DNA of 40,666 bases from Acidobacteriota bacterium (GTDB lineage: Bacteria; Acidobacteriota; Blastocatellia; Pyrinomonadales; Pyrinomonadaceae). Below are positions 4,345 to 14,746 of this stretch, piece by piece. Under the pieces are notes generated by a model. It worked only from the letters and a program-made list of their open reading frames with translations. It made no database searches and was not told the DNA's origin. The position numbers and the translations under genes were made by a program. Numbering within the stretch: position 1 is the first letter of the stretch; each line of letters begins with the position of its first letter. The stretch covers positions 1 to 40,666 of the forward strand of contig JAOAPY010000050.1 of the NCBI GenBank assembly GCA_025463135.1, written 5' to 3'.

Positions 4345-6687
4345 TTGACGCAAATTTCCCCCACTAAAGCTCAAAAGAATTCACAAATGCTTGCCGGCTT
4401 CGAGCTGTTTCTGATCAGCACCGTGATCTTATTTCTCGAACTGGCTGCCATTCGCTGGTTTCCCGCTCACGTGTTGTACCTGACCTTCTTTACAAACATA
4501 GTATTGCTGGCATGTTTCCTGGGCATGTCGGTAGGTTGTCTGGCCGCCAGCCATCGGCGCAATTATTTGAAGTGGACGCCATTGTTGCTGGCCGTGGCGC
4601 TGCTGGGTGCACTGTTTGTGGAAATAAGCAGCGGCTCGTTTGTAAAGTTTCTGGATGTCGGTCACCAGGCCTCGCCACAACTGGTGTTTTTCGGCACTGA
4701 ATATCACAGTCAGGATCTCTCTCGTTATGCAGTGCCGGTCGAGGCCTTGTGCGGGTTCTTTTTTCTGATCATTGCATTGGCGCTGATTGGGCCCGGCCAG
4801 GAACTGGGTCGAGCACTCAACCGCTGGACCAATCGGGTGCAGGCCTACAGCATAAACATCAGCGGCAGCATCGTTGGCATTCTGTTGTTTGCGCTTTGTT
4901 CGAGGTTGCAGCTTTCACCGTTGTGGTGGTTTTCGCTGGTGGCGCTCGGGCTGGCCTATTTTCTTTTCATTTCACCGCGGCGGTACTTTAGCAAGCTCTT
5001 TGGACCAGGTCTGCTCGCCTTCTTTTTGCTGATCGCGATGGTGAGTCTGGCGGCCTATACCCCAGTCCATAACAACTATGAAGGGCAACGCGAAGCACAG
5101 CATTTCTGGTCGCCCTACTACCGCATCGATTTCAAGCAGAAAGACCTTTCGTTGTCGGTGAATCTGATCTATCACCAGCAAATGGTTTCACGTAATGAGG
5201 TGTTTCCGGCTTACGCCCTGCCGCATTTGCTGAACCGGGACAGCGGCCGTCCGGCTTTCAAGGATGTGATGATCATCGGCGCCGGATCGGGCAATGATGT
5301 CAGTCGGGCCCTGCAATGGGGCGCGGATCATGTGGATGCCGTCGAGATCGATCCGGCCATCTACGGGCTGGGACGACAGTATCATCCGGATCGTCCCTAC
5401 CAGGATTCGCGCGTGCAGATTCATCTGGATGATGGTCGTAATTTTTTGCGAGCGACGGAACGTAAATACGATCTGATTGTTTACGCGCTGGTGGATTCAC
5501 TGGTGTTGCACAGCGGTTACAGCAATATCAGACTCGAAAGTTACCTGTTCACGAAGCAGGCGTTCGCGGATGTGAAACGGCACTTGAAGCCCGGTGGCAC
5601 ATTTGTGATCTACAACTATTTTCGCCAGGGCTGGTTGGCCGCGCGTTTACAAAACGGGTTGGAAGAAGTCTTCGGGGCAGGGAATTCGCTCGTCCTAACC
5701 TTGCCATATCGCAAGGTCATTGAGCCTGAGACTGCGACCTTCGGAGACTTCACTGTCTTCTTCGCCGGAGACACGAACGCCTTGCGAACCGCCTTCAGCA
5801 AGCAGCCTGAATATTTTCTCCGCAAGGATCAGCCGCCCGGGCCTGCCTCGCCGAATGGATTCTTGAATGCAGCACCGACGGATTTCGCGCAGGCTGTCGC
5901 CCAGGGCAAGCAGGATCAATCTGCCTGGCAGCGATTTGGACTCGCAACTGTGGCGCCCGTGGCCGGTGGAATACGCACGGCAACCGACAACTGGCCCTTT
6001 CTTTATTTGCGCAGTCCGATGATCCCTACCCTGAGCCTGCGCGGCATGCTCATCATGGGCGTTCTGGCCCTGTTGCTGATTGTCGTGTTTCTGCCGCGAC
6101 GAAAGGGCGCGGATCAGAGCGTCAGTGCAAGTGGTCCTCTTAACCTGCAAATGTTTTTTCTGGGCGCTGGTTTCATGCTCGTCGAAACCAAGGCCGTCGT
6201 TTCGATGGCGCTGTTGTTTGGCAGCACCTGGGTCGTTAACTCGGTGGTGTTTTTCGCCGTGCTGGTAATGATCCTGTTGGCGAGTCTCTTCACGTTAAAG
6301 TCAAAGAGCCCCAGGTTGGGACTTTACTATGCAGGCCTATTCGTGGCGCTCTTGCTGAACGTTTTGATTCCGCTCGATTTCTTTTTGGGGATCAGCCGCA
6401 CGCTGCAGGTAACGGGAGCTTGCCTATTGGTCTTCGCACCGATTTTGTTTGCTGGTCTGATCTTCGCGGCCCTGTTCAAGAGTACGGCGGAACCTGATCG
6501 CGCGTTCGGCTTTAACATTGCCGGCGCCATGATTGGCGGACTGGCGGAATACAGTTCGATGCTGCTGGGGTTTCAATACGTAGTGCTGGTGGCGTTGCTG
6601 TTCTATGCCCTGTCGGCGCTGGGTCTGCGACGAGCAAAAAGCGCGGCCGTCTCCGACGAGCTACCCGGCGAAGCGCTGCCGGATTAA
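4345..6687 (+). CDS. Membrane protein with spermidine-synthase-like SAM domain
   Basis: A 780-residue protein. Several membrane segments fill residues 15-230. A Rossmann domain of the spermidine synthase/methyltransferase type lies at about 270-470: IIGAGSGND near 310, VDAVEIDPAIYGLG, and LDDGRNFLRATERKYDLI. A second membrane block occupies about 570-770. This is the known layout of large spermidine-synthase-like membrane proteins, whose substrate is generally unknown. The SAM-binding glycine loop and the acidic EID residue are present, so binding of SAM or decarboxylated SAM is plausible. Real polyamine synthesis is not shown. The start is a TTG preceded by AGCGAGGA. It lies 335 bp upstream of the NRPS genes on the same strand, but the gap argues against one operon. 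Confidence 0.8.
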   Translation: MTQISPTKAQKNSQMLAGFELFLISTVILFLELAAIRWFPAHVLYLTFFTNIVLLACFLGMSVGCLAASHRRNYLKWTPLLLAVALLGALFVEISSGSFVKFLDVGHQASPQLVFFGTEYHSQDLSRYAVPVEALCGFFFLIIALALIGPGQELGRALNRWTNRVQAYSINISGSIVGILLFALCSRLQLSPLWWFSLVALGLAYFLFISPRRYFSKLFGPGLLAFFLLIAMVSLAAYTPVHNNYEGQREAQHFWSPYYRIDFKQKDLSLSVNLIYHQQMVSRNEVFPAYALPHLLNRDSGRPAFKDVMIIGAGSGNDVSRALQWGADHVDAVEIDPAIYGLGRQYHPDRPYQDSRVQIHLDDGRNFLRATERKYDLIVYALVDSLVLHSGYSNIRLESYLFTKQAFADVKRHLKPGGTFVIYNYFRQGWLAARLQNGLEEVFGAGNSLVLTLPYRKVIEPETATFGDFTVFFAGDTNALRTAFSKQPEYFLRKDQPPGPASPNGFLNAAPTDFAQAVAQGKQDQSAWQRFGLATVAPVAGGIRTATDNWPFLYLRSPMIPTLSLRGMLIMGVLALLLIVVFLPRRKGADQSVSASGPLNLQMFFLGAGFMLVETKAVVSMALLFGSTWVVNSVVFFAVLVMILLASLFTLKSKSPRLGLYYAGLFVALLLNVLIPLDFFLGISRTLQVTGACLLVFAPILFAGLIFAALFKSTAEPDRAFGFNIAGAMIGGLAEYSSMLLGFQYVVLVALLFYALSALGLRRAKSAAVSDELPGEALPD

Positions 6688-7023: not shown

Positions 7024-8943
7024 ATGTCTAATCCATTCACTTCGTTAAGGGCCTCTTACAAAGACAATGGTCCCCAGGTTTCTCGCGGCGTACGGCGTCA
7101 ATTCACTAAGAGTCGCGCTACGCCGAAAGAGTTACTGATTACGCAAATGTTCGCTGATAGGGCGATGAGCGCACCCGAAAGTACGGCGCTAAAAGCCGGA
7201 GCCCGGTCTCTGACGTATGCAGAGTTGGACCGGACGGCCAACCGCCTGGCTCACTACCTGATTGAATGCGCCGTTGGTCCCGAGTCCATCGTCGCAATTT
7301 GTCTGGACCGCTCACTGGACTCAGTGATCTGCGCGCTCGCCGTCCTGAAAGCTGGGGGAGCCTATCTTCCGATCGACCCCGCATATCCAGGCGAACGGCT
7401 CGCTTTCATGCTCAATGATGCTCAGCCAACTGTCGTGCTTACGAAACAGGAAACATCCGCGCAACTGACCACCGGCGCCTGGCGCGTCTTAGAGATAGAC
7501 CGCGAGGCTACTGTCATTGAACGCTATTCAGCTGAAGCGCCGCTCAATAGATCAACCTCTGAAGATCTGGCCTATGTTATTTACACTTCAGGATCGACAG
7601 GTGAGCCAAAGGGCGTGGAGATCACGCACGGCAGCCTGATGAACTTGATTTCGTGGCATCAGCAGGCCTTCGACGTTACGAGGGCCGACCGCGCAAGTCA
7701 CCTCGCTGCCGTCGGGTTCGACGCTTCGGTTTGGGAAACATGGCCCTACCTGGCGGCCGGAGCAAGTCTGCATTTGCCGGATGAGGACACGCGAGTTTCG
7801 CCTGAGCACCTGCGTGACTGGCTGGTGGCCGAAGGGATCACCATCAGTTTTCTGCCAACCGTGTTGGCTGAACGAGCGATGACTCTGGATTGGCCGGAGA
7901 ATATCGCCTTGCGCTTCCTGCTAACCGGCGCCGACACTTTGCATAGCTATCCGCCGGCCGGCCTACCCTTCGCGGTAATTAATAACTATGGTCCAACCGA
8001 GTGTACCGTGGTCTCGACCTCAGGCACGGTCGAACACGGAGTCTGCCGCGATGTTCTGCCAACAATCGGTCTGCCCATCGCGAATACGAAAATCTACATC
8101 CTCGATGAGCAGCAGCGACAGGTCTCGGAAGGTTCGGCCGGCGAACTCTATATCGGCGGCGCCGGAGTTGCTCGAGGTTACTTGAATCGTCCGGATTTGA
8201 CGGCGGAAAAGTTTATTGAGAATCCTTTTAGTCTTCCTTTTGATAAGGATGGCAACGCACGTCTGTACCGGACGGGTGACATCGCCCAATTCCTTCCCAA
8301 TGGTGAGATCGCATACCTGGGGCGCGTCGACGATCAGATCAAGGTGATGGGCTATCGCATCGAGCCCAACGAGATTGTGGCCGTGCTGAATCGTCATGCG
8401 GAAGTACAGGAGAGTGTCGTTGTAGCGCGCGACATCGTCTGTAGCGAGCGACAACTGGCCGCCTACGTCGTCCTGAAAAGCGAAGCGCAATTGACAGCTG
8501 AGGATCTACGGGGCTTTCTGCGCGCCGAATTGCCCGATTACATGGTGCCCTCGATTTTTGTACGTCTCGATTCGCTGCCGACGACTCGCAACGGCAAAGT
8601 CGATAAGAAATCGCTGCCCGCGCCCGTTGCGGAGAATACCTTATGGGACGAGGTGTTCACGGGCCCGCGCACGCCCCTGGAAGAGCGACTGGCGATTATG
8701 CTTTCCACTCTGCTGGGGATCGAAGCGGTCAGTGTCCACGATAATTTCTTCCTGCTCGGCGGGCATTCATTGCTGGGCACACAGCTCATCGGACAGATTC
8801 GCGGAGCCTTCGGAGTCGACCTGGCTTTACGTTCGCTCTTTGACGCGCCGACCATCGCGGAACTGGCTCAGGAAGTCGAGAGATTACTGCTCGCTCGAGT
8901 TCAAGCGATGAGTGAGGACGAGGTATTGCAGTTATTAACGTAA
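7024..8943 (+). CDS. NRPS adenylation-carrier didomain, predicted leucine-activating
   Basis: A 639-residue free-standing A-PCP protein. It activates an amino acid as its adenylate and loads it on its own carrier arm. A motifs: YTSGSTGEPKG near residue 186, NYGPTE near 320, YRTGD near 414, and the catalytic Lys in NGKVDKK near 522. Aligned by eye to GrsA, the pocket residues read D-A-W-F-L-G-N-V-V plus K, the published leucine code. The carrier motif is LGGHSLLG with the phosphopantetheine Ser at 582. There is no C domain and no TE. An A-PCP followed by a P450 is the arrangement used elsewhere to beta-hydroxylate a tethered amino acid (for example NovH/NovI or NikP1/NikQ). Beta-hydroxyleucine is therefore the inferred product. 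Confidence 0.92.
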   Translation: MSNPFTSLRASYKDNGPQVSRGVRRQFTKSRATPKELLITQMFADRAMSAPESTALKAGARSLTYAELDRTANRLAHYLIECAVGPESIVAICLDRSLDSVICALAVLKAGGAYLPIDPAYPGERLAFMLNDAQPTVVLTKQETSAQLTTGAWRVLEIDREATVIERYSAEAPLNRSTSEDLAYVIYTSGSTGEPKGVEITHGSLMNLISWHQQAFDVTRADRASHLAAVGFDASVWETWPYLAAGASLHLPDEDTRVSPEHLRDWLVAEGITISFLPTVLAERAMTLDWPENIALRFLLTGADTLHSYPPAGLPFAVINNYGPTECTVVSTSGTVEHGVCRDVLPTIGLPIANTKIYILDEQQRQVSEGSAGELYIGGAGVARGYLNRPDLTAEKFIENPFSLPFDKDGNARLYRTGDIAQFLPNGEIAYLGRVDDQIKVMGYRIEPNEIVAVLNRHAEVQESVVVARDIVCSERQLAAYVVLKSEAQLTAEDLRGFLRAELPDYMVPSIFVRLDSLPTTRNGKVDKKSLPAPVAENTLWDEVFTGPRTPLEERLAIMLSTLLGIEAVSVHDNFFLLGGHSLLGTQLIGQIRGAFGVDLALRSLFDAPTIAELAQEVERLLLARVQAMSEDEVLQLLT

Positions 8944-9101
8944 GAACAAATCCATTTTCCATTTGAGATTTCTCATTTGACATTTTTTATTGATGGCCCA
9001 GTCTTACCAGTAAGTCGCGAGTCGTTCCGGAAATCAAATGGTCAATGAGAAATGACAAATAGTGACAAATGCCAAATGGGAAATGATGTCTAACCACAAA
9101 T
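8944..9101. repeat. AT-rich inverted words between NRPS and P450
   Basis: This spacer has the words TTTCCATTTGAGA and TTTCTCATTTGACA on the left. Their near-complements AATGAGAAATGACAAAT and CCAAATGGGAAATG lie on the right. Together they form a loose inverted repeat of about 130 bp. No ORF is present. It separates two genes that appear to act together and looks like a small repeat insertion. Confidence 0.55.
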
Positions 9102-10415
9102 ATGACCACCCCCAATTCAACATCTCCGCCCCGCCGGCCGCCAACACTGAGCCTGTATCAACTCCTGGATCCTGAGGTCCTGGCTAATCCCTATCCGCTT
9201 TACGCCCGTCTGCGTACCGAGTCCCCCGTTTATTGGGATCCGTATCTCCACGCCTGGGTCGTTACGCGCTATGCGGACGTCGTTACGGTGCTGCACCATT
9301 TTTCCGCCAATCGCACGCCCACGCCTGAGCAATTTGCCGCTCTTGGTCTGGCTGAACTTGGTCCCGTTTCGCAGATGATGGTCAGGCAGATGCTGTTCAT
9401 GGATGCGCCCGACCACACGCGTTTGCGAGGCTTGGCATCAATGGCGTTCACTCCTGCGCGAGTCGAAGCCTTGCGCTCTCATATCCAGGAGATCATGGAT
9501 CGGTTACTGGAGCCACTGTTGTCCGCCGGTCGCCTGGATGTGATCGCTGATCTGGCTGCGCCGTTGCCGGCCATCGTCACTGCCGAAATGCTCGGCGTGC
9601 CGACCAGGGACAGCGACCAATTAAAGTCATGGTCGGCAGATTTCGCGGAAGTGCTGGGTAACTTTCAACACAATCCTGATCGTGCCTCGCGCACCCTGAA
9701 GTGCGTTGAAGAAATGAGTTCGTATTTTCGCGCCGCGATTCAGCAGATGAAGACAGAACCGCGCGAGGGTCTTATCAACGCGTTAATGACCGCCGAGATC
9801 GATGGCGATCGCCTGACCGAGGAAGAGATCATCGCCAACTCGATCGTGACCATGGTGGGTGGACAAGAGACTACTACGAACCTGATTGGCAATGGAGTCC
9901 TGGCCCTGCTGCGCCATCCGGATCAGTTGGACAGGCTGAGATCGGATCTCAGTCTGATCCCGTCGGCCGTTGAAGAGTTGTTGCGTTTCGAAAGCCCGAG
10001 CCAGCACACGGCGCGCATCGCGCCACAAGATACGGAACTGGGAGGAAAGAAGATCCGCAAAGGCCAGGCGGTCATCGCCGTGATGGGAGCGGGCAACCGC
10101 GATCCGGAGCGCTTTCCCGATCCTGATCGACTCGACATTGCGCGCAAGGACAACCGCCATCTGGCGTTTGGCTGGGCCAGCCACTTCTGTTTTGGCGCGC
10201 CGCTGGCGCGCATTGAAGGACAAATCGCGCTCGAGGCGATTGTCCGGTTGGCCGATCTGGCATTGGAATCCGGCCCACTGGTCTGGAGAGACAACCTGGG
10301 CCTCAGGGGATTGATGACCCTGCCCGTAACGTTTGGCCAGGGGCTAGCACCGGTGTGTAATCAACCGCGAATCGAGCCTGTGACCAGTGGCTGTCCATTC
10401 CACGGCGCGGCATAG
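9102..10415 (+). CDS. Cytochrome P450, candidate aminoacyl-carrier hydroxylase
   Basis: A 437-residue soluble bacterial P450. The I-helix oxygen-binding segment is MVGGQETTTN near residue 252, the ExxR motif is EELLR near 292, and the heme loop FGWASHFCFGAPLAR puts the axial Cys at 363. The loop departs from the usual FGxGxHxC by having Ala in place of the second Gly. No membrane anchor is seen. It lies between an A-PCP gene and a C-A-PCP-TE gene on the same strand, with a 56-bp gap to the latter. By analogy with known tailoring P450s in such loci it probably oxidises the amino acid held on the A-PCP protein. That role is inference. No ferredoxin gene is adjacent, so the electron partner must come from elsewhere. 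Confidence 0.9.
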   Translation: MTTPNSTSPPRRPPTLSLYQLLDPEVLANPYPLYARLRTESPVYWDPYLHAWVVTRYADVVTVLHHFSANRTPTPEQFAALGLAELGPVSQMMVRQMLFMDAPDHTRLRGLASMAFTPARVEALRSHIQEIMDRLLEPLLSAGRLDVIADLAAPLPAIVTAEMLGVPTRDSDQLKSWSADFAEVLGNFQHNPDRASRTLKCVEEMSSYFRAAIQQMKTEPREGLINALMTAEIDGDRLTEEEIIANSIVTMVGGQETTTNLIGNGVLALLRHPDQLDRLRSDLSLIPSAVEELLRFESPSQHTARIAPQDTELGGKKIRKGQAVIAVMGAGNRDPERFPDPDRLDIARKDNRHLAFGWASHFCFGAPLARIEGQIALEAIVRLADLALESGPLVWRDNLGLRGLMTLPVTFGQGLAPVCNQPRIEPVTSGCPFHGAA

Positions 10416-10422
10416 CACAGTC

Positions 10423-10443
10423 CGACAAACCTTTAGTTTGTCG
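10423..10443. repeat. Short hairpin before the second NRPS gene
   Basis: CGACAAAC and GTTTGTCG are perfect 8-bp arms around a 5-base loop in the P450-NRPS gap. The same word forms the core of the MITE-like elements at 15897, 24948 and 35235, so this may be a relic of that family. It could also affect the relative expression of the two genes. Confidence 0.5.
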
Positions 10444-10471
10444 TTGCCTTTCGGAGACACAGAGCGATTTT

Positions 10472-13400
10472 ATGCACGAGCATCTTCCTATCACGACGAC
10501 AAACTCAAGTTTGCCGGACATCTCCGATGCCAAGCGGGCCCTGCTCCAAAAATATCTGCGAGGAGACCTCGCGCATTCAACTCCAGAGTCGCGTGTGATC
10601 GCACGCCGCGCGCCCGGAAGTTCCGTTCCACCTTCGTTCGGACAGGAACAGCTTTGGTTGCACGCCCAACTGTCGGGCGATTTCCCGCTCTATAACGAAC
10701 CGGTTACCGTGCGCCGGACTGGCCCACTCGACCTGGTCGCTCTGAAGCAAAGTCTCAACGAGATCATTCGCCGCCACGAAGCCTGGCGCACTACCTTTAG
10801 TACCAGGGATGGTCAGTTGGTCCAGATCATCAACCCTCCGGTTGACCTTGAACTTCCGGTGGTGGATCTCTGCGATTTGGAAGAAGGTGAACGTGAAGCC
10901 GAAGCGCTGCGTCTGGCTACGGAAGATGCGCGGCGACCCTTCGACCTGAATAACGGCCCATTGCTGCGAGCGATGCTGGTGCGCTTGAACGATGCGGACC
11001 ACCGCTTGTTCATCACCTTGCACCAGATAATCTTCGATGGTGTATCTCTCTACAGCGTGTTCCTGCCGGAACTGGCATCGCTGTACGAATCTTTTGTCAA
11101 CGGCCAACCCTCTGGGCTCGCGGAATTGCCCATTCAGTATGGAGACTTCGCTGCCTGGCAACGCGATCAACTGCGGGATGAAGCACTCTCAGACGAATTG
11201 GCCTATTGGAAAAAGCAGCTTACCGGCGCCCCGACTGCGCTGGAGTTGCCGACTGATCGACCGCGACCGGCAATCCAAACTTTTCATGGAGAGCAACTAT
11301 CTTTCACGTTTCCACAGCAGCTAAGCGAAGCACTCAAGCTGCTAAGCCGGCGCGAAGGAACGACCCTCTTCATGACTCTGTTAGCAGCATTTCAAACCCT
11401 GCTTTATCGCTACACCGAACAGGATGATTTGCTGGTGGGCACGGTCACGACGAACCGCAAGCGATCTGAGTTTGATGAGCTCCTTGGGTTTTTTCTTAAC
11501 ACCCTCGTGCTGCGCACCGATCTGGCGGGCGACCCCACGTTCCATGAGCTGCTGGGGCGCGTACGCAAAGTGACCGTGGACGCGCTGGCCCATGGCGATG
11601 TCCCCGTTCATCGTTTGCTGAAGGAACTGGAGCGAGAACGTGACCTGAGCCGCAATCCGCTGTTTCAAGTGATGTTCGTGCTCGAGCCACCCTTGCCGGC
11701 GCCTCGGCCGGGATGGGAGCTGAGTCAGGTCGATGTTGATGCCGGCATAGCGAGGGTCGATCTGTATCTCGAACTGGATGATCGACCTGAAGGCCTCGTG
11801 GGTCGTTTCAGATACAACAGTGATCTCTTTGATGCTGCTTCCATCAACGGCATGCTGGCCCACTTACGGACTTTGCTGGAAGGTGTTGTTGCCAATCCGG
11901 AGTGTCGCATCTCGGACTATCCATTGCGCGCCGAGTTTGGAGACACTGGCGACCTTGCCGGCGGCAACAGCGTTCGTCTCGTAAATCCTTTTACAAGCTT
12001 TGCACAACAAGAGATCGAGCAATCAATACCAGCCCGCTTCGAAAGTCAGGTCAGAAAATATTCCCGGAACATTGCCGTTAAGAGCCGGACACATCAGTGG
12101 TCTTACGAGGAATTGAACCGTCAAGCTAACCGGATAGCGCAGACAATTTTCAATCAACGCGGCGAGGGCGAGGAGAGAATCGCTATTCTGTTTGACCACG
12201 ATGCACCTATGATCGCTGCGTTACTGGGCACGTTGAAAGCGGGCAAAACTTACGTCCCGCTCGATCCCTCGTATCCCATCGAAAGGCTCGCCTACATCCT
12301 CGCCGACTCTCAGGCAGTCGCACTGTTAACCAATGACGCGAACCTCGCGCTGGCCCAGGAACTGACTGCCGATGGCGTTGAACTTATCAATATCGATCAG
12401 ATGATCGATTACCTGGATACGGCTGCGACATTCGCCGGTGCAGTCGATGTTCCAGCCGAACGTCTGGCTTACATTCTGTATACCTCTGGTTCGACGGGAA
12501 ACCCGAAGGGAGTGATGCAAACCCACCGTAATGTTTTGCATTTCATTCGGGCCTACACTAACAACCTTCACATCAGCGCGAATGATCGTCTTACGCTCTT
12601 GTCGTCCTATTGTTTCGACGCGGCGCTTATGGATATTTACGGCGCCTTGTTGAATGGCGCCACACTCTATCCGGTCGATATCAAGGAAGAAGGGCTAGCA
12701 GGGCTTACCGAACGGCTCAGCGATGAAGGGATCACGATTTATCATTCGACGCCGACGGTCTATCGCTATTTTATTAATTCGCTGACTGCCGGAAATAGCT
12801 TCACTGAACTGCGTCTGGTCGTGTTGGGAGGAGAAGAAGTCACCCGTACCGACGTTGACTTGTACAAGAAACACTTCGCGGATGATTGCCTGTTGGTGAA
12901 CGGTCTTGGACCAACGGAAGCCACCGTAAGCCTGCAGTACTTTATCGACAAGGGCAGCAATATTTCGGGTCAGGGCGTTCCGGTCGGCTATCCGGTTACG
13001 GGCACTGAGATTGTATTACTAAATAGGGCCGGGAAACCGGCAGAGATTCGCGGCGAGATTTCCATCCGCTGCGAGCATGTCGCGCTAGGTTACTGGAGAA
13101 ATGCGAAGGCAACCGAAGCTGCGTTTTCTCAGGAATCAGGTGTACGTGTTTATCGCACCGGCGACATGGGACGCAGGTTGCCGGACGGTTCAATTGTCTT
13201 TGAAGGAAGAAAAGACTTTCAGATAAAGATAAGAGGCTTTCGTGTCGAGTTGGGAGAGATCGAAGCAGCGCTAAGCCAACACCCTGCAGTACGCGAGAAC
13301 GTGGTTGTGCTCAGTCGGACCAACGCCGGCGACAAGCAGTTGGCGGCTTATGTTGTCATCAAGCCGGATCCGGCGGCAGGCGACATCGACCTGCGCTCGT

Positions 13401-14746
13401 TCTTGAAAAATAAACTGCCGGATTACATGCTGCCCACTGCGTTTGTAGTGCTCGATTCATTGCCAATGACTGCGAGCGGTAAACTGAACCGGCGCGCGCT
13501 GCCTGAACCGAAAGAGTTTGCCGACCAAACGAAAGTCACTTTCACGCCTCCGCAAACCATCGTTGAAAAACTTTTGGCCGGCATCTGGTCGGACTTGCTC
13601 GGCGTCAAAGAACCGGGAATCAACGATAATTTCTTCGAGTCAGGCGGACACTCTTTGCTGGCCGTACGCTTGTTCGCACTGGTAGAGAAAGAGTTGGGCA
13701 AACGCTTGCCGCTGGCTACGCTTTTCCGGGCGCCGACCATCGCCCAACTTGCTGAAATAATTGATCGGGACTGGACGTCGCGTTGGACCTCGCTGGTTCC
13801 GATTCAAACTGCCGGCTCAAAGCCACCCTTCTTCTGTGTCCATGCCCTGGGCGGGACCGTGATTGAGTACTACGATCTGGCGCGGCACCTGGGACCGGAT
13901 CAACCGTTTTATGGCTTACAGGCGCAGGGCGTTGATGGCCAACATTCGCCGCATACAACTATCGAAGACATGGCGGCGCACTACATAAAAGAGATCCGCG
14001 AGGTCCAACCTTCGGGGCCTTACTTCATCGGCGGCCGATCGATGGGCGGAACGATAGCGTTTGAGATGGCCTGTCAGCTTGAGCGAATGGGTGAGCAAGT
14101 TGGGTCGCTTGCGCTCTTGGATACGTACCCGTCCGGATACGTCAAGCTGTTGCTGGATGCCGAGAGACTATCCAATAAGTTTGCATTGTTCGCCAGGCGA
14201 ATCGGATGTCACTTTTCAAACTTGAAAGGTCTGGCTGGACGAGAGAAGTTTCGCTATGGCGCGGAGAAAATGCGATATGTGCCGGCCAGGATTAAGGCTT
14301 CCCTGTGGCGACGAGCTTATCGCTTGTACCAGAATTTCGGTCGCCAGTTGCCGCGCGCGCTTAGCGATGTACGAGAGTTCAACACCATGGCCCGGCTCAA
14401 CTATGCGCCGCAGGTGTTTGGCGGAGAAGTGACGCTCTTCTGGGCCAGTCAGGATTTGCGCGGGTCTTTTGATCTGGTAACAGGCTGGCGCGTATTGGCG
14501 GGCGGTGGCATGAATGTACACGAAGTTTCCGGCAATCATTTGAATCTCATCAAAGAGCCTTACGTCAGCGAACTGGCTGTGAAGTTACAAAACTGTCTGC
14601 AAAAGGCGCAAGCGCAAGTTTCGATCAGACTTAACCAGACAGGAATCGCCGCCGTCTCAGATGAAGTACAACCTCAGGAAGAGGCGCGGCCGCGCCGTTT
14701 TTGTCCTCCCGCTCATATCAAGCAGCATTCAATTCCCGCGACCTGA
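10472..14746 (+). CDS. NRPS with C-A-PCP-TE domains, variant condensation site
   Basis: A 1424-residue terminating NRPS module. The condensation domain (about 40-470) has HQIIFDG at 184-190 where active domains have HHxxxDG, so the catalytic second His is Gln185. The rest of the fold, for example YGDFAAWQRDQL and RNPLFQVMFVLEP, is well kept. The adenylation domain (about 515-1010) has YTSGSTGNPKG near 669, GLGPTE near 810 in place of the usual NxYGPTE, and the Lys of SGKLNRR near 1004. The pocket by eye is D-A-M-H-V-G-G-V-S, a code not recognised. The carrier motif ESGGHSLL has Ser1061. The thioesterase (about 1110-1395) has GGRSMGG with Ser1190, LLDTYP and SGNHLNLI as a likely Asp-His pair. 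It probably condenses its own amino acid with the one supplied by the upstream A-PCP protein and releases a dipeptide-scale product. Confidence 0.93.
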   Translation: MHEHLPITTTNSSLPDISDAKRALLQKYLRGDLAHSTPESRVIARRAPGSSVPPSFGQEQLWLHAQLSGDFPLYNEPVTVRRTGPLDLVALKQSLNEIIRRHEAWRTTFSTRDGQLVQIINPPVDLELPVVDLCDLEEGEREAEALRLATEDARRPFDLNNGPLLRAMLVRLNDADHRLFITLHQIIFDGVSLYSVFLPELASLYESFVNGQPSGLAELPIQYGDFAAWQRDQLRDEALSDELAYWKKQLTGAPTALELPTDRPRPAIQTFHGEQLSFTFPQQLSEALKLLSRREGTTLFMTLLAAFQTLLYRYTEQDDLLVGTVTTNRKRSEFDELLGFFLNTLVLRTDLAGDPTFHELLGRVRKVTVDALAHGDVPVHRLLKELERERDLSRNPLFQVMFVLEPPLPAPRPGWELSQVDVDAGIARVDLYLELDDRPEGLVGRFRYNSDLFDAASINGMLAHLRTLLEGVVANPECRISDYPLRAEFGDTGDLAGGNSVRLVNPFTSFAQQEIEQSIPARFESQVRKYSRNIAVKSRTHQWSYEELNRQANRIAQTIFNQRGEGEERIAILFDHDAPMIAALLGTLKAGKTYVPLDPSYPIERLAYILADSQAVALLTNDANLALAQELTADGVELINIDQMIDYLDTAATFAGAVDVPAERLAYILYTSGSTGNPKGVMQTHRNVLHFIRAYTNNLHISANDRLTLLSSYCFDAALMDIYGALLNGATLYPVDIKEEGLAGLTERLSDEGITIYHSTPTVYRYFINSLTAGNSFTELRLVVLGGEEVTRTDVDLYKKHFADDCLLVNGLGPTEATVSLQYFIDKGSNISGQGVPVGYPVTGTEIVLLNRAGKPAEIRGEISIRCEHVALGYWRNAKATEAAFSQESGVRVYRTGDMGRRLPDGSIVFEGRKDFQIKIRGFRVELGEIEAALSQHPAVRENVVVLSRTNAGDKQLAAYVVIKPDPAAGDIDLRSFLKNKLPDYMLPTAFVVLDSLPMTASGKLNRRALPEPKEFADQTKVTFTPPQTIVEKLLAGIWSDLLGVKEPGINDNFFESGGHSLLAVRLFALVEKELGKRLPLATLFRAPTIAQLAEIIDRDWTSRWTSLVPIQTAGSKPPFFCVHALGGTVIEYYDLARHLGPDQPFYGLQAQGVDGQHSPHTTIEDMAAHYIKEIREVQPSGPYFIGGRSMGGTIAFEMACQLERMGEQVGSLALLDTYPSGYVKLLLDAERLSNKFALFARRIGCHFSNLKGLAGREKFRYGAEKMRYVPARIKASLWRRAYRLYQNFGRQLPRALSDVREFNTMARLNYAPQVFGGEVTLFWASQDLRGSFDLVTGWRVLAGGGMNVHEVSGNHLNLIKEPYVSELAVKLQNCLQKAQAQVSIRLNQTGIAAVSDEVQPQEEARPRRFCPPAHIKQHSIPAT

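Follow-up and report, generated by a model that had tools for sequence, protein, structure and literature searches.

Organization of the locus

We analyzed contig JAOAPY010000050.1 of a soil Acidobacteriota bacterium over its entire 40,666 bp (the window), which is contig C52 of a 6.48-Mb, 56-contig, 100% complete genome. It carries what looks like a complete small nonribosomal peptide synthetase (NRPS) locus. Three open reading frames (ORFs) on the forward strand encode a stand-alone adenylation–peptidyl carrier protein (A-PCP), a cytochrome P450 and a condensation–adenylation–PCP–thioesterase protein (C-A-PCP-TE; carrier domains are also denoted T). The ORFs and their Pfam matches (AMP-binding and PP-binding; p450; Condensation, AMP-binding, PP-binding and Thioesterase), all far above the cut-off, bear out this order, which a preliminary description of the sequence had proposed together with a count of only two adenylation domains. 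The count holds for the window as well, since each type of domain in the locus (A, T, C, TE, P450) was used as a tblastn query and gave no further copies within the 40,666 bp; it is the absence of any other NRPS domain on the contig that makes the locus appear complete. The other NRPS clusters of the genome lie on different contigs (26 condensation matches genome-wide, one of them in the window), and three phosphopantetheinyl transferases (PPTases) and two MbtH proteins are encoded elsewhere in the genome.

7024–8943, + strand: stand-alone A-PCP protein, 639 aa, pocket DAWFLGNVVK (ORF, Pfam, pocket reading)
7153–8598, + strand: adenylation domain A1, residues 44–525 (AMP-binding, AMP-binding_C)
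8686–8874, + strand: carrier domain T1, residues 555–617, GGHSL present (PP-binding, sequence)
9102–10415, + strand: cytochrome P450, 437 aa (Pfam; model mean pLDDT 86.8)
9858–9872, + strand: P450 I-helix GGQET, residues 253–257 (G253, Q255, E256 and T257 invariant in 71 aligned rows, G254 in at least 90%)
10188–10190, + strand: P450 heme ligand Cys363 in FGWASHFCFG (invariant in 71 rows)
10472–14746, + strand: C-A-PCP-TE protein, 1424 aa (ORF, Pfam)
10628–11929, + strand: condensation domain, residues 53–486, of the cassette-type C clade described below (Pfam, tree)
11021–11041, + strand: C active-site motif HQIIFDG, second His replaced by Gln (codon CAG, 11024–11026)
12038–13483, + strand: adenylation domain A2, residues 523–1004, pocket DAMHLGGVSK (Pfam, pocket reading)
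13571–13759, + strand: carrier domain T2, residues 1034–1096 (PP-binding)
13826–14554, + strand: thioesterase domain, residues 1119–1361, GRSMG serine motif (Pfam, sequence)

The core motifs of A1 are readable. We located the pocket residues of both A domains from such motifs, using GrsA numbering. The ten-residue pocket of A1, DAWFLGNVVK, is the leucine code that the preliminary description had given as DAWFLGNVV-K. It is among the commonest codes for the Leu/Ile/Val group (PMC12283262), and the leucine modules of the scytocyclamide synthetases, two of whose positions finish as 3-hydroxyleucine, share it (PMC7524897). Of 79 rows from related loci (window counted), 66 show the code unchanged, 4 show an incomplete code that agrees with it and 9 depart from it by one or two residues. 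Activation of leucine by A1 is thus supported by a pocket that is both exact and conserved across phyla. We also considered a β-lactone-forming TE of the ObiF kind; ObiF uses a cysteine, and the window TE has a serine (GRSMG). The A2 code DAMHLGG is absent from the main text of PMC12283262, and we found no substrate assignment for DAMHLGGVSK.

The A-PCP and P450 pair recurs across bacterial phyla

With two queries, the window P450 and a relative 80% identical to it, we confirmed 117 loci and kept 80 (64–79% identity); adding L105–L109 gave a set of 85. The set includes duplicates: L106/L025 and L108/L026 have identical P450s, five Thermogemmatispora loci are near-copies, and so are L066 and L069. 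Left out before counting were L010 and L104 (the same place as L024) as well as L110–L114, whose P450s reach 39–42% identity with no NRPS match within the 3–4 kb examined.

In 78/85 loci, the P450 is preceded on its own strand by an A-PCP ORF, which always has a T match. The A-PCP ORF is directly adjacent in 77, at −264 to 221 nt from the longest P450 ORF start, and in L039 a C ORF stands between the two. The seven loci missing a same-strand upstream A-PCP comprise L065 and L096, where it is on the opposite strand, L080, where it lies ~9 kb upstream, L109, a locus cut by the start of its contig, and L050, L081 and L094, with no A-PCP in the 1.7–3.6 kb examined upstream.

The pair of leucine A-PCP and P450 is found in at least seven bacterial phyla. 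By NCBI ranks, the 71 aligned P450s include 39 from Acidobacteriota, 10 from Chloroflexota, 6 from Verrucomicrobiota, 5 from Rokuibacteriota, 4 from Pseudomonadota and 1 each from Planctomycetota and Vulcanimicrobiota, the remaining five being the window, three further genomes and one record that has no phylum; many loci come from metagenome bins, and the single Planctomycetota and Vulcanimicrobiota loci depend on binning. The window P450 groups in a set of eight rows with SH-aLRT support of 100; the members that carry a name belong to Acidobacteriota, two being labelled Blastocatellia and one gp4. Across 66 loci, A-PCP and P450 identities are correlated (r=0.63; 0/499 permutations as high), as shared ancestry of the pair, or relatedness of the hosts, would produce. 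Excerpts of a Ktedonobacteria paper (PMC6497799) do not describe the cassette, and neither did we find it in the open-licence PMC literature, a scope that makes this weak evidence of novelty.

What follows the pair is far less uniform. The ORFs beside the P450 encode C-A-T-TE proteins, C-A-T chains, free C domains, C-T-TE, TE-like or GNAT-like proteins, or a PPTase, and the downstream A codes, which we read as Gly-, Val-, Thr-, Ser- or β-Ala-like, differ widely among loci. In 12/85 loci, the P450 is itself fused to NRPS domains: six P450-A-T-TE, five P450-C-A-T-TE (including L040) and one P450-C-A-T that is cut by a contig end. Eight of the 12 fusions were checked by Pfam. Judged by gene order, the leucine A-PCP and the P450 are a portable cassette set before differing partners.

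Two kinds of loci have no C match in the DNA examined. The ktedonobacterial L044, L073 and L082 consist of A-PCP, P450 and a TE-like ORF (a Pfam TE in L073 and L082, none in the 137-aa ORF of L044), while in L079, L085, L090, L095 and L103 the ORF after the P450 is GNAT-like (in L095, its Pfam match is below the cut-off and NCBIfam gives none). Loci of these two kinds suggest that leucine oxidation is independent of condensation, and in the GNAT-like ones the oxidized leucine might be directly transferred or N-acylated.

An acyl-CoA-dehydrogenase-like ORF is present in 10/71 loci (L047, L051, L054, L055, L059, L061, L063, L067, L068 and L070). In L070, its best solved match is the prolyl-ACP dehydrogenase 4irn (486 bits; next, 315), and its best NCBIfam model, a prolyl-PCP dehydrogenase, scores below that model's cut-off. 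For a separate A protein of L051, the prolyl-carrier ligase 6o6e is the best stand-alone A match, after multi-domain synthetases. Perhaps, then, these loci oxidize another carrier-bound amino acid in addition to leucine.

The P450 and its probable substrate

Conservation among the three genes is highest for the P450 (80% identity to the relative in L024, genome G029), and its family is uniform: 70 relatives share 64–80% identity with the window protein, with LGNFQHNP and GGQETTTN nearly fixed. The heme cysteine (C363), the ExxR residues (E292, R295) and the I-helix acid–threonine pair (E256, T257) are invariant in all 71 rows. By both sequence and fold, the closest solved structures among the matches listed are the P450BioI–acyl-ACP complexes (3ejb, 3ejd, 3eje), which superpose on the AlphaFold2 model at 39% identity with a Z-score of 51.7 and a root-mean-square deviation of 1.5 over 378 residues (VIA-align; Foldseek). 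CYP109 and CYP107 enzymes and CalO2 (Z 50.9) come next among these matches; because these Z-scores are so close, we treat the kinship with P450BioI as a ranking and not as proof. Like the predicted substrate here, that of P450BioI was carrier-bound in the crystals. BioI itself acts on a fatty acyl-ACP, and its gene is not known to lie beside an A-PCP.

The intact catalytic residues and the genetic tie to the A-PCP are those expected of the functional class of aminoacyl-PCP P450 hydroxylases. Oxidation of carrier-bound leucine by the P450 is supported by this context, namely the A-PCP adjacency, the NRPS fusions, the loci without C match and a nearest solved relative that takes a carrier-bound substrate. 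Since the A-PCP neighbor is invariant while partners and A codes vary, leucyl-T1 is the more likely substrate, rather than any finished peptide.

The closest precedent is the polyoxypeptin cluster, in which a free A domain, PCPs, a TE and the P450 PlyR are proposed to supply 3-hydroxyleucine, and in which a plyR knockout gave no product (PMC3943440). The likeness to PlyC, PlyD/PlyQ, PlyR and PlyS lies in discrete A and carrier parts and in a P450 proposed to act on carrier-bound leucine. The two systems differ in that the polyoxypeptin cluster encodes its A, PCP and TE parts as individual small proteins, with an A substrate that could not be predicted, whereas here a single A-PCP protein has an exact leucine pocket, and in that PlyR resembles NikQ (37%), whereas the window P450 is nearest to BioI and to CYP109/CYP107 structures among the matches listed. 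By analogy with PlyR, the oxidation is likely a β-hydroxylation. The hydroxylation of a tethered amino acid put forward in the preliminary description therefore stands in part: oxidation on the carrier is supported by context, and the β position follows from the PlyR precedent.

A condensation domain without the second histidine

The condensation domain of the window matches PF00668 at full length (positions 6–447 of 456, 326 bits) and yet reads HQIIFDG in place of the canonical HHxxxDG. It is not alone in this. Among the first C domains after the P450 (n=58, window counted), 44 have the second histidine, 11 have glutamine and three have alanine, aspartate or phenylalanine, so that 14/58 are without it. 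We built a tree from 104 C domains (a quick search with SH-aLRT only and motif columns retained). In it, 71 domains including that of the window form one clade with support of 100, and over the tree as a whole the fewest His/Gln/other changes number 10. Outside this cassette-type clade fall the eight other C domains of the host genome that we sampled out of 25, all HH, and also those of the near relatives L024, L026, L027, L108 and L109.

The comparison with L024 is informative. Its C domain (HHIVSDG) shares ~45% identity with that of the window, in contrast to 80% for the P450, 64% for the A-PCP and an identical A2 pocket; the C domain has therefore evidently been exchanged in either the window or the L024 lineage. 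With homologous A1, P450, A2 and TE around an HQ domain in one and an HH domain in the other, the pair would be a natural experiment on the need for the second histidine, a debated point.

A sequencing error is rejected as the source of the HQ motif because CAG or CAA also occurs in L025, L033, L038, L056, L058, L066, L069, L099 and L100 (L106 is probably L025's genome). Compared with L025, which is also HQ, the window shows identities of 73% (C), 59% (A1), 69% (A2), 60% (TE) and 78% (P450). By NG86, the C domain has a dN of 0.17 and a dS of 1.54, against dN of 0.36 for A1, 0.23 for A2 and 0.17 for the P450; dS is saturated in several such comparisons. In the window, decay as a pseudogene is rejected on these values, the dN of C being below that of A1 and A2, though not below that of the P450. 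Between L038 and L033, some relaxation of selection on C is possible (dN/dS 0.40 for C, 0.31 for A1, 0.15 for the P450).

The X domain of glycopeptide synthetases is a condensation-like domain with an altered motif, and the interface class of condensation-like domains serves in oxidase recruitment. The interface (I) class has been named as such (PMC10212144). With both, the window C domain shares the C fold, an altered HHxxxDG and an oxidase nearby. In contrast to them, the altered motif here is in the system's only C domain, at the usual position of an elongating domain, and the cassette also occurs in loci with no C match in the DNA examined; such loci also weaken the idea that the C domain is a general recruiter of the P450.

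In L040, the ORF at 9950–14578 looks intermediate between P450-C-A-T-TE and P450-A-T-TE, only the C-terminal half of C being kept.

Proposed pathway and alternatives

We propose the following pathway. A1 would adenylate L-leucine and load T1, as the exact and conserved pocket suggests. The P450, a relative of P450BioI, would then oxidize leucyl-S-T1, most likely to β-hydroxyleucyl-S-T1, and the C-A-T-TE protein would charge T2 with a second amino acid. The C domain may transfer the oxidized leucine to the T2 residue, either at a low rate or because something else stands in for the lost histidine. Release by the TE would then give a dipeptide-sized product, condensation and release being the weakest step. 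For the whole sequence of loading, on-carrier oxidation, condensation and release, we estimate a probability of roughly 45%. Several observations weigh against it. The only C domain of the window is without its catalytic histidine, and the same H-to-Q change leaves ~1% activity in the fuscachelin C3 domain (PMC8097023). C domains of Terriglobia loci appear eroded, down to profile positions 202–455 of 456 in L040 and to none in six fusions. In the scytocyclamides, which have the same leucine pocket, the hydroxylation is assigned to cupin-8 proteins and not to a P450, and is placed after the peptide bond has formed (PMC7524897). Differently arranged loci have deviating pockets (DAWFTGNVV- in L065, DALFTANVLK in L096), and the A-PCP/P450 correlation could be explained by host relatedness alone. 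Finally, P450sky, OxyD, NovI and NikQ are absent from the best 60 solved structures by sequence and the best 50 by fold, which does not in itself exclude kinship, nor does it place the P450 in an unrelated family, the outcome that the preliminary description had named as a refutation. These four are aminoacyl-PCP β-hydroxylases, which probably share with the window P450 a reaction on a PCP-bound amino acid, although the partner architecture differs.

Alternatively, the C domain might be dead in condensation and serve only as a structural platform, for example for the P450 and T1, with the oxidized leucine leaving by another route and A2-T2-TE working separately. The HQ motif, the 14/58 first C domains without the second histidine, the tandem C domains that both lack it in L056, L058, L066 and L069, the half or missing C domains and the fuscachelin result all agree with such a role. 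We nevertheless hold it to be rather unlikely, since the C domain is better conserved between the window and L025 than A1, A2 and TE are, since an HH domain occupies that position in L024, a close relative whose A2 pocket is identical, and since loci with no C match show that recruitment of the P450 does not in general depend on a C domain. The dipeptide-sized product expected in the preliminary description from two A domains is doubtful because the only C domain has no catalytic histidine.

The explanations considered here overlap, and their odds are not additive to one. The P450 may instead act on carrier-bound leucine away from Cβ, giving a desaturated, γ- or δ-hydroxylated or N-oxidized residue. 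P450BioI acts on fatty chains held by a carrier and is no amino acid β-hydroxylase, so that the nearest solved relative lends this some weight; the free A/PCP and P450 precedent with leucine is assigned to 3-hydroxyleucine (PMC3943440), and we consider oxidation off Cβ rather unlikely. That the P450 tailors the peptide after assembly and release, as does PlyM, the other P450 of the polyoxypeptin cluster (PMC3943440), seems to us very unlikely: A-PCP and P450 stay paired while downstream modules vary, some loci have no C match in the DNA examined, and the P450 is found fused to NRPS modules. If on-carrier oxidation is correct, one small conserved cassette would feed oxidized leucine to synthetases of widely differing kinds, in soil phyla that have received little study. 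Its P450 may then have acquired activity on carrier-bound amino acids separately from the aminoacyl hydroxylases already known.

Polysaccharide genes around related loci

Near many relatives of the cassette we found sugar transferases, Wzx flippases, Wzz, BY-kinase, deacetylases and glycosyltransferases. Marker names are our reading of the sequences, with a Pfam search for the sugar-transferase family alone, which has 1–13 copies per genome in 39 genomes. Among the 56 loci that span 15 kb or more, 28 have at least one of 15 markers and 26 at least two. Because the choice of markers was itself based on what recurs around cassettes, only a within-genome control carries weight. In 16 genomes, chosen for long contigs and mostly Terriglobia and Thermogemmatispora, markers occur in 15/16 cassette loci and in 1/20 control 20-kb stretches (1/19 without the control L122, which overlaps the L042 cassette flank by ~8 kb).

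The window contains none of the marker set, and for that reason no exopolysaccharide role can be claimed for it. Around the many relatives that do have such genes, they hint at possible roles for such peptides beyond antibiosis. A broader proposal, which we regard as unlikely, is that the cross-phylum cassette delivers oxidized leucine to conserved C domains that have repeatedly lost the histidine, that condensation there proceeds without it, with the β-hydroxyl of the donor or another residue as the base, and that the product is linked to exopolysaccharide synthesis in many of the hosts.

Other features of the window

Promoter- and terminator-like sites are no commoner than in shuffled sequence. 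A perfect 8-bp inverted repeat with a 5-nt loop lies at 10423–10443, between the P450 and NRPS genes; the folding energy of the region is ordinary (z −0.53), and we rejected the hairpin. At 208–1701 (− strand), a single protein has an ATP-grasp domain of the D-Ala-D-Ala-ligase type and, at its C-terminus, a SET domain (Pfam). Directly 5′ of the NRPS locus, at 4345–6687 (+ strand), a large protein has a spermidine-synthase-like domain (Pfam) and looks by eye like a membrane protein.

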